The translations under genes and the position numbers were made by a program. The notes under the pieces were generated by a model, which did no database searches, was not told the DNA's origin, and saw only the letters and a list, made by a program, of their open reading frames with translations. From Bacteroidales bacterium (GTDB lineage Bacteria > Bacteroidota > Bacteroidia > Bacteroidales > Marinilabiliaceae), in contig QKJP01000066.1 of assembly GCA_003249255.1 (NCBI GenBank), forward strand, positions 124,001 through 188,000: a stretch of 64,000 bases of DNA, given 5' to 3'. Positions 27,098 through 28,653 of the stretch are shown here, piece after piece; position 1 is the first letter of the stretch, and every line of letters starts with the position of its first letter.

Positions 27098-27553
27098 TTA
27101 AAATACATACAAATGTTCTTCATCAGTAATTTTTTCACAATAGTGACATTTAAGAGCCAGCTTTTGCTTATCCAACACCGAAAAGCGGGTTTGCATACTT
27201 TCGTTATTGGTAATGCAATTAGGATTAAAGCATTTTGCAATTCCGATGACTTCATCAGGTATATTCACTTTCTTTTTCTCAACTACTTCATAGTTCTTAA
27301 TCACATTGAGTACGGCATTGGGTGCAACCAAAGCAATTTTATCTATTTCATTTTTTTCGAATAATAGATCAGAAATTTTAATAATTGCCTTATTCCCATG
27401 TTTGTGACTCTCCAAATTATTTCCAAAAGTAATTTGATTGGAAATTTTATGTAATTTAAGAATAGAAATTACTTTAAAGAGATTTTTGGCTGCAATGTGG
27501 TCAATGACAGTTCCGTTTTTAATGGCATTAACTTTTAATTCTTTTTTCATCAT
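27098..27553 (-). CDS. pyrI: Aspartate carbamoyltransferase regulatory subunit
   Basis: PyrI binds nucleotide effectors (CTP/ATP in E. coli) and assembles with PyrB into the allosteric holoenzyme. The 151-aa protein has the N-terminal allosteric domain (KVNAIKNGTVIDHI, start of the effector-binding region) and the C-terminal zinc domain with cysteines in CFNPNC and CHYC. The start is an ATG-ATG pair; either may be used. It follows pyrB by 12 bp, so one transcript under the pyrB leader is expected. Confidence 0.95.
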   Translation of the reverse strand: MMKKELKVNAIKNGTVIDHIAAKNLFKVISILKLHKISNQITFGNNLESHKHGNKAIIKISDLLFEKNEIDKIALVAPNAVLNVIKNYEVVEKKKVNIPDEVIGIAKCFNPNCITNNESMQTRFSVLDKQKLALKCHYCEKITDEEHLYVF

Positions 27554-27565
27554 ACCTAACGTTCT

Positions 27566-28474
27566 TTATTTTAAACCAAGAATAGAAGCCATAATGGCCA
27601 TGCGGGCAAATACACCATTTTTCGCTTGTTCGAAATAATAAGCTTTCGGATTGTCATCCACATCGGTATGAATTTCATTTACCCTAGGTAATGGATGAAG
27701 AATACGTAGATTGTTTTTGGTGTTATTCAGCATACTATTTCTTAACACGTACACATTTTTTACTTTTTCGTATTCCAGGTGATCAGAAAAGCGCTCACGC
27801 TGCACTCTGGTCATATATAGAATGTCTGCTGCTTCTAAAATATCGGTAAACTCTGTATGTTCGTAATACTTTATGTTCTTAGAATCTAAAAACATCTTGT
27901 ATTCAGTTGGCATTTTTAAAGAGTTAGGAGATATAAAATTAAAAGTAGGATTAAAATGAGACATGGCCATTAATAAGGAGTGTACTGTGCGTCCGTACTT
28001 CAAATCGCCTACCATAAAAACATTCAAATTCTCAAGTGTGCCTTGTGTTTTATAGATGGAGTACAGATCAAGCAACGTCTGTGTGGGATGCTGATTTGCA
28101 CCATCTCCGGCATTTATAATTGGTACACTGGATTGTTCTGAAGCATAGCGGGCAGCTCCCTCACGGTGATGTCGCATGACAATTAAATCACTGTAATTAC
28201 TCACCATTTTAATGGTATCTTTTAATGATTCACCTTTAGTAGCAGATGATGATGATGCATCACTAAAACCTATTATTCGTCCGCCCAAGCGTTGGATGGC
28301 CGTTTCGAAGCTTAAACGGGTTCTTGTTGAGGGTTCAAAAAAAAGACTTCCTACAATTTTACCTGCTAATAAGTCTTGATTTGGGTTTGCTTCAAAATCT
28401 GCTGCTAATTCAACAATCCGTAGAATTTCGTCCTTAGAGAAATCTGAAATTGAAACTAAGCTCTTGTTTTTCAT
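27566..28474 (-). CDS. pyrB: Aspartate carbamoyltransferase catalytic subunit
   Basis: Catalyses carbamoyl phosphate plus aspartate to carbamoyl aspartate, the committed step in pyrimidine synthesis. The 302-aa protein has the carbamoyl-phosphate motif [13 protein letters not shown] (around residues 45-57), the 80s-loop segment [22 protein letters not shown] and [10 protein letters not shown] start at the ATG at 28474, because the longer frame uses a TTG that lies beside the terminator T run. The gene is preceded by a 36-codon reading frame and a strong intrinsic terminator only 16 bp before the start, which suggests transcription attenuation. pyrI follows. Confidence 0.96.
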
Positions 28475-28489
28475 GCCTTTTATAAATCG

Positions 28490-28521
28490 CAAAAAAAGAC
28501 CTGCAATTAAATTACAGGTCT
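28490..28521 (-). terminator. Attenuator terminator in the pyrB leader
   Basis: On the minus strand AGACCTG (28515-28521) pairs with CAGGTCT (28497-28503) and is followed by seven T, ending 16 bp before the pyrB ATG. The 5' arm begins inside the third of three consecutive stop codons of the leader frame, so a ribosome finishing the leader would cover it. Confidence 0.85.
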
Positions 28522-28525
28522 ATTA

Positions 28526-28636
28526 TTAATTTAAAATCAACTCTTCACAAAGTATGCAAACTAATAAAGAAAGAACAGAAAGATAAATTCTTTCGTTTTT
28601 TCGGATCTCTTTTAGGTATTGATTTATCATTTGCAT
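28526..28636 (-). CDS. Putative pyrBI leader peptide
   Basis: A 36-codon frame starts MQMINQYLKEIRKNERIYLS and ends with LCEELILN, followed by three consecutive stops (TAA TAA TAG) directly before the terminator stem. The mRNA between the middle of the frame and the hairpin is U-rich (for example TTTATCTTTCTGTTCTTTC), as expected where RNA polymerase would pause at low UTP. The arrangement matches the logic of enteric pyrL-pyrBI, although the peptide is unrelated in sequence. The start is uncertain (ATG at 28636 or 28630), since the best -7 element is very close. Confidence 0.6.
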   Translation of the reverse strand: MQMINQYLKEIRKNERIYLSVLSLLVCILCEELILN

Positions 28637-28645
28637 TACAAAAAA

Positions 28646-28653
28646 CAAAGGTA
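28646..28653 (-). promoter_or_regulatory. Promoter -7 element of pyrBI
   Basis: The minus strand reads TACCTTTG followed by TTTTTTG, so the first transcribed bases may be a T tract. The 5' leader before the first ATG would be only a few bases. No TTTG at -33. Confidence 0.45.

Follow-up and report, generated by a model that had tools for sequence, protein, structure and literature searches.

The minus strand of the window (here, the whole 64-kb stretch of DNA analyzed) encodes both subunits of aspartate carbamoyltransferase, and the region upstream of these pyrB and pyrI genes contains a -7 box, a gap, a short reading frame, stop codons, and a predicted terminator. The features are as follows:

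28646–28653, minus strand: -7 box TACCTTTG, matching the Bacteroidota sigma-A -7 consensus TAnnTTTG (assigned by consensus only)
28637–28645, minus strand: 9-nt gap TTTTTTGTA with the predicted transcript start inside (from box-to-ATG spacing in relatives and the box position in PMC9723704)
28526–28636, minus strand: leader peptide frame, 36 codons plus the first stop TAA, ATG at 28636–28634 (sequence and relatives)
28578–28594, minus strand: candidate pause hairpin GAAAGA-AUUUA-UCUUUC (-4.7 kcal/mol, z -5.2, as an isolated segment)
28558–28577, minus strand: U-rich stretch UGUUCUUUCUUUAUUAGUUU 3' of the hairpin, candidate UTP-sensitive pause region (sequence and the rise of U in relatives)
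28520–28525, minus strand: two more in-frame stops, TAA TAG, the last overlapping the terminator 5' arm (sequence)
28497–28521, minus strand: terminator (putative attenuator) stem-loop AGACCUGUAAUUUAAUUGCAGGUCU (fold and relatives)
28491–28497, minus strand: seven-T run of the terminator, its first T paired in the stem (sequence)
27566–28474, minus strand: pyrB, aspartate carbamoyltransferase catalytic subunit, the putatively regulated gene (Pfam PF02729, PF00185)
27098–27553, minus strand: pyrI, regulatory subunit, the next gene of the operon (Pfam PF01948, PF02748)

The leader peptide encoded in the window is MQMINQYLKEIRKNERIYLSVLSLLVCILCEELILN (36 codons). The stop triplet TAA TAA TAG occupies 28528–28520, and two bases of the last stop are shared with the terminator 5' arm; the terminator itself has an 11-bp stem and a loop of 3 (-13.4 kcal/mol, z -7.1), and its T run ends at 28491, 16 nt 5' of the pyrB ATG at 28474. 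All of the elements from which a sequence-only reading had proposed a pyrL-like attenuator (the frame, the three stops with the last overlapping the 5' arm, the seven T, and the 16-bp distance to pyrB) are thus present. The terminator pattern GACCTG...CAGGTC followed by a T run is retained in many relatives. The fold of the complete leader beats 200 of 200 shuffles (z -4.1), and an Rfam scan of the leader region returned no family at gathering score. Three terminator-like sites were observed within 1.2 kb (0.6 expected), the pyrB site among them, and although the window contains 96 TAnnTTTG boxes, only the one before pyrB is followed at 7 or 9 nt by an ATG whose frame meets a terminator. A flavin reductase-like gene (PF01613; 26477–27055, minus strand) lies 42 bp downstream of pyrI and may belong to the operon.

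Conservation of the leader frame

The comparison drew on 154 distinct regions upstream of close pyrB homologues, 86 of which have a terminator before pyrB; in 64 of these 86 an ATG also follows a box at a distance of exactly 7 or 9 nt, frame length not being a criterion. Read from this ATG, the frame extends to the terminator stem in 62 of the 64 regions, compared with 0 and 2 for the other two frames; at the stop rate of those frames, chance would leave 3.9 of the 64 open. Related sequences within this count are not independent, and the pattern recurs in many genera, which belong to several families. Before the stem, the leader frame has 11 stops in 2639 codons, versus 189 in 2618 and 204 in 2597 codons of the other frames. 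The two exceptions are L066 and L097; for L097 a spurious first ATG was taken, and another candidate frame is long.

All 62 reaching frames extend to within 10 nt of the stem or beyond it, 47 regions have a frame that crosses the entire hairpin, and in 26 regions the frame ends between -3 and +11 relative to the pyrB ATG, with an ATGA overlap in many of them. The form seen in the window, with stops abutting the hairpin, recurs in L023, L028, L038, L039, L052, L107, L108, L143, and L153. In L007–L022 there are 90–130 additional nucleotides between terminator and pyrB, still inside the leader frame, and several of these regions have, close to where pyrB begins, a short inverted repeat (e.g., GTGGGG...CCTCA in L017) that is absent from the window.

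Frame and hairpin are kept in close and distant relatives, the conservation by which the pyrL-like reading was to be judged, and the reading gains support from it. The comparison supports selection on a frame that would carry ribosomes to the terminator before pyrBI.

A putative translation-coupled attenuator and its signal

Bacteroidota make little use of Shine-Dalgarno sequences. No clear -33 TTG element precedes the leader's -7 box in the window, and the gap from box to ATG in relatives is 9 nt in 48 cases and 7 nt in 10, other gaps occurring 0–4 times each. The -7 box of Flavobacterium psychrophilum occupies positions -12 to -5 (PMC9723704), which would place the start of the RNA ~5 nt past the box and leave a 5' UTR of ~2–5 nt. 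Judged by this predicted start site, the leader is probably near-leaderless, with its ATG almost at the RNA 5' end. Short 5' UTRs are a minority in Bacteroidota (those <10 nt make up 3.7% in PMC7366714, and leaderless mRNAs 5.5% in PMC9723704); the spacing that would give rise to a near-leaderless start is conserved in relatives and may be functional.

Across 62 relatives, U accounts for 24% of the first 40 nt of the leader and rises toward the terminator to 51%; in the four 15-nt bins before the stem it is 44–51% in three and 36% in the fourth. This bears out the U-rich RNA that had been noted ahead of the terminator, represented in the window by UGUUCUUUCUUUAUUAGUUU. A mid-leader hairpin occurs in many relatives (z +1.3 to -3.3 versus shuffles) and is moderately supported.

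On this comparative evidence, the element is likely to attenuate pyrBI transcription through coupling to translation, in the manner of the enteric pyrBI system. RNA polymerase would start a few nucleotides 5' of the leader ATG, and a ribosome would load near the RNA 5' end. When UTP is scarce, polymerase would linger in the U-rich part of the leader, aided by the mid-leader hairpin, and the ribosome would catch up; on reaching the stops abutting the terminator (or, in most relatives, on passing through the hairpin) it would cover the 5' arm and allow readthrough into pyrBI. When UTP is plentiful, polymerase would outrun the ribosome, the hairpin would form, and transcription would end. Terminators of E. 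coli are nearly fully repressed by a close stop codon and regain full strength beyond ~30 bp, and the repression is lost once translation is uncoupled (PMC4824070); the window stop 4 nt before the stem would thus suffice. Comparison of the relatives supports a leader frame and a terminator held in a fixed arrangement, as well as selection that keeps the frame open; we infer the start site, translation itself, occlusion by the ribosome, polymerase pausing, and the UTP signal. Points that weigh against the proposal are the rarity of very short 5' UTRs in the phylum, the moderate support for the pause hairpin, and the absence of the element from one genus of the family (g20), from Bacteroides, and from many other Bacteroidales.

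UTP is probably the signal, given the gene context, the U-rich leader, and the analogy to enteric bacteria. A translation-coupled attenuator could instead sense charged tRNA, general translation speed, or the carbamoyl-phosphate/arginine state, since what the relatives share is no more than a frame extending to the terminator, and any signal that alters ribosome-polymerase spacing would act on it. The leaders are also rich in Phe, Leu, and Ile. However, the Phe richness follows from U-rich RNA, the genes controlled are pyrBI, no codon run is shared across the leaders, and upstream RNA pairs with the terminator 5' arm only to the extent seen in shuffles (mean z +0.16, n = 62), so that a trp-like antiterminator is absent. 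We therefore regard a signal other than UTP as unlikely. Amino-acid attenuation of the trp/his type was rejected for want of both the shared regulatory codon run and the antiterminator pairing.

The frame might alternatively encode a small functional protein with an incidental terminator, as could be suggested by the frames of relatives, which stay open for as many as 120 codons and in some cases overlap pyrB by ATGA. Against this, pN/pS is ~1 in most close-relative pairs, and the other frames do not differ systematically from this; leader length varies from 24 to 120 codons; there is no Pfam or NCBIfam match; and the frames never end well short of the hairpin. Indels between close relatives are mostly multiples of three, which together with the pN/pS values and the variable length indicates that it is the frame that is kept, not the peptide. 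A functional small protein is accordingly very improbable, and the evidence supports selection for an open frame and not for a particular peptide sequence.

We give equally little credence to attenuation by a riboswitch or by binding of a PyrR-like protein, with the frame there by accident. The terminator does precede pyrB, as in PyrR-controlled operons; however, PyrR was found at cut-off in 0 of 119 Bacteroidales tested and is likewise missing from this genome (best match 23 bits versus a cut-off of 138), the leader has no Rfam match, and the frame bias would be left unexplained.

The sequence-only reading had further suggested that the T tract after the -7 box could add UTP-dependent slippage at initiation, and this part is not supported. 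In the window, TTTTTTG follows the box, as it does in L036, L040, L056, and L058; no conserved T tract was found at the predicted transcript start, as the sequence downstream of the box is T-rich only in the window and some relatives, and in most of the 51 relatives with a 9-nt gap the window T6 is replaced by AACTYYGGA. Reiterative initiation at the T6 tract as the main control, with the terminator secondary, is the least credible of the explanations considered, because most of the gap-9 relatives lack the tract and the start predicted for the window falls near the end of the T run, hence leaving few T for slipping.

Comparison with known attenuators

The translation-coupled attenuator proposed here resembles that of enteric pyrBI (PyrL of E. 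coli K-12; PF08052) in lying before pyrBI, in a frame that meets or crosses an intrinsic terminator, in a U-rich leader without an antiterminator, and in a peptide that is apparently free to vary. The anatomy of E. coli pyrL, with a frame through the terminator, a stop 3 nt before pyrB, and U-rich RNA before the stem, is that of the leaders compared here, and many of the relatives have a frame that likewise ends at the pyrB start. The differences from the enteric system are that the promoter has a Bacteroidota -7 box; that the ATG lies 7 or 9 nt behind this box, leaving almost no 5' UTR, whereas the E. coli leader has a Shine-Dalgarno sequence; that the frames of the window and at least nine relatives stop at the hairpin rather than cross it; and that initiation slippage is not conserved.

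The peptide had also been described as unrelated to the enteric one, and this is upheld: the window leader and the relatives tested gave no match to the PyrL models PF08052 and NF007587 at E up to 1, while the E. coli PyrL control matched them at 3e-34 and 3e-35, respectively. Membership in the pyrL sequence family was rejected for this reason. Homology to the E. coli leader at the DNA level was rejected too, since alignments with it cover, at best, the shared T-tract end of the terminator. The proposed mode of working is like that of enteric pyrBI; the sequence family is not pyrL.

The attenuator of enteric pyrE also couples a translated upstream frame to a terminator with UTP as the signal, but the frame that precedes enteric pyrE is a complete gene, rph, whereas the one described here is a dedicated short leader. 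The PyrR-controlled pyr attenuators similarly regulate pyrimidine genes through terminators; in the Bacteroidales tested no PyrR was found, and the frame, not a protein-binding RNA, is conserved. The trp/his attenuators share the combination of leader peptide and terminator, whereas the Bacteroidales leaders have neither a regulatory codon run nor antiterminator pairing.

In the open-licence papers searched, we found no pyrBI attenuator in Bacteroidota, in agreement with the earlier statement that no such element was known there, and found the scheme documented only in enteric bacteria. Leader-peptide-like frames are mentioned in general in a transcript map of B. thetaiotaomicron (PMC7366714), and before amino-acid operons in that of F. 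psychrophilum (PMC9723704).

Distribution and pyrimidine regulation in Bacteroidales

Within Marinilabiliaceae, the full element occurs in 43 of the 64 regions of the family, which come from 14 of the 19 genera; the other five genera lack it, among them g20 with 0 of 13 genomes. Outside the family, it is carried by Marinifilum, Labilibaculum, Ancylomarina, Maribellus, several Prolixibacteraceae, and Coprobacter, and by MAGs assigned to Barnesiella and Butyricimonas. Cultured organisms with the element include Saccharicrinis aurantiacus, Labilibacter marinus, Marinifilum, and Labilibaculum. A further sampling of 51 upstream regions from additional Bacteroidales families, together with class-level loci, indicates that the element is patchy in the rest of Bacteroidales and missing in many; it is absent from the Bacteroides species examined.

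Other pyrimidine genes of this genome differ in their upstream regions. The pyrE gene has no such leader. Around 170 bp upstream of the carA ATG (L260), there is a box TACCTTTG, 9 nt, and an ATG opening a 13-codon frame MKSCMHAFIPNQE, accompanied by a hairpin of AT-rich sequence, ATGCATTTATTC...GAATAAATGCAT, and a T run. Many relatives keep this hairpin before carA but not the short frame, which suggests that a different attenuator-like element may control carAB. In the carA upstream regions L269, L274, L276, and L264, AT-rich repeats (ATGCATATTTATTCA, AATATTTATGCAT) before the promoter resemble arginine-repressor boxes.

In the class-level sample, which includes only three Bacteroidales, PyrR is present at cut-off in 71 of 80 genomes, and in many of the genomes G458–G534 it lies beside a divergent pyrB, the product of which is ~37% identical to the PyrB of the window. 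The latter is 55% identical to E. coli PyrB. The absence of PyrR and the type of PyrB thus set Bacteroidales apart from the rest of the class in both enzyme type and regulator, and the position of PyrR next to the divergent pyrB outside the order indicates that pyrimidine regulation shifts along with enzyme type at the border of the order. A broader scenario, to which we assign about even chances, is that Bacteroidales, lacking the PyrR common elsewhere in the class, combine an enteric-like pyrBI with a UTP-sensing leader attenuator, in which the near-leaderless start would be a part of the sensor by allowing early ribosome loading.

If the attenuator operates as proposed, it would be an independent or very diverged example of repressor-free regulation of pyrimidine synthesis outside enteric bacteria, and would explain the control of pyrBI in an order without PyrR. 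It would also imply tight coupling of transcription and translation in Bacteroidota, and would provide a natural system for testing such coupling.
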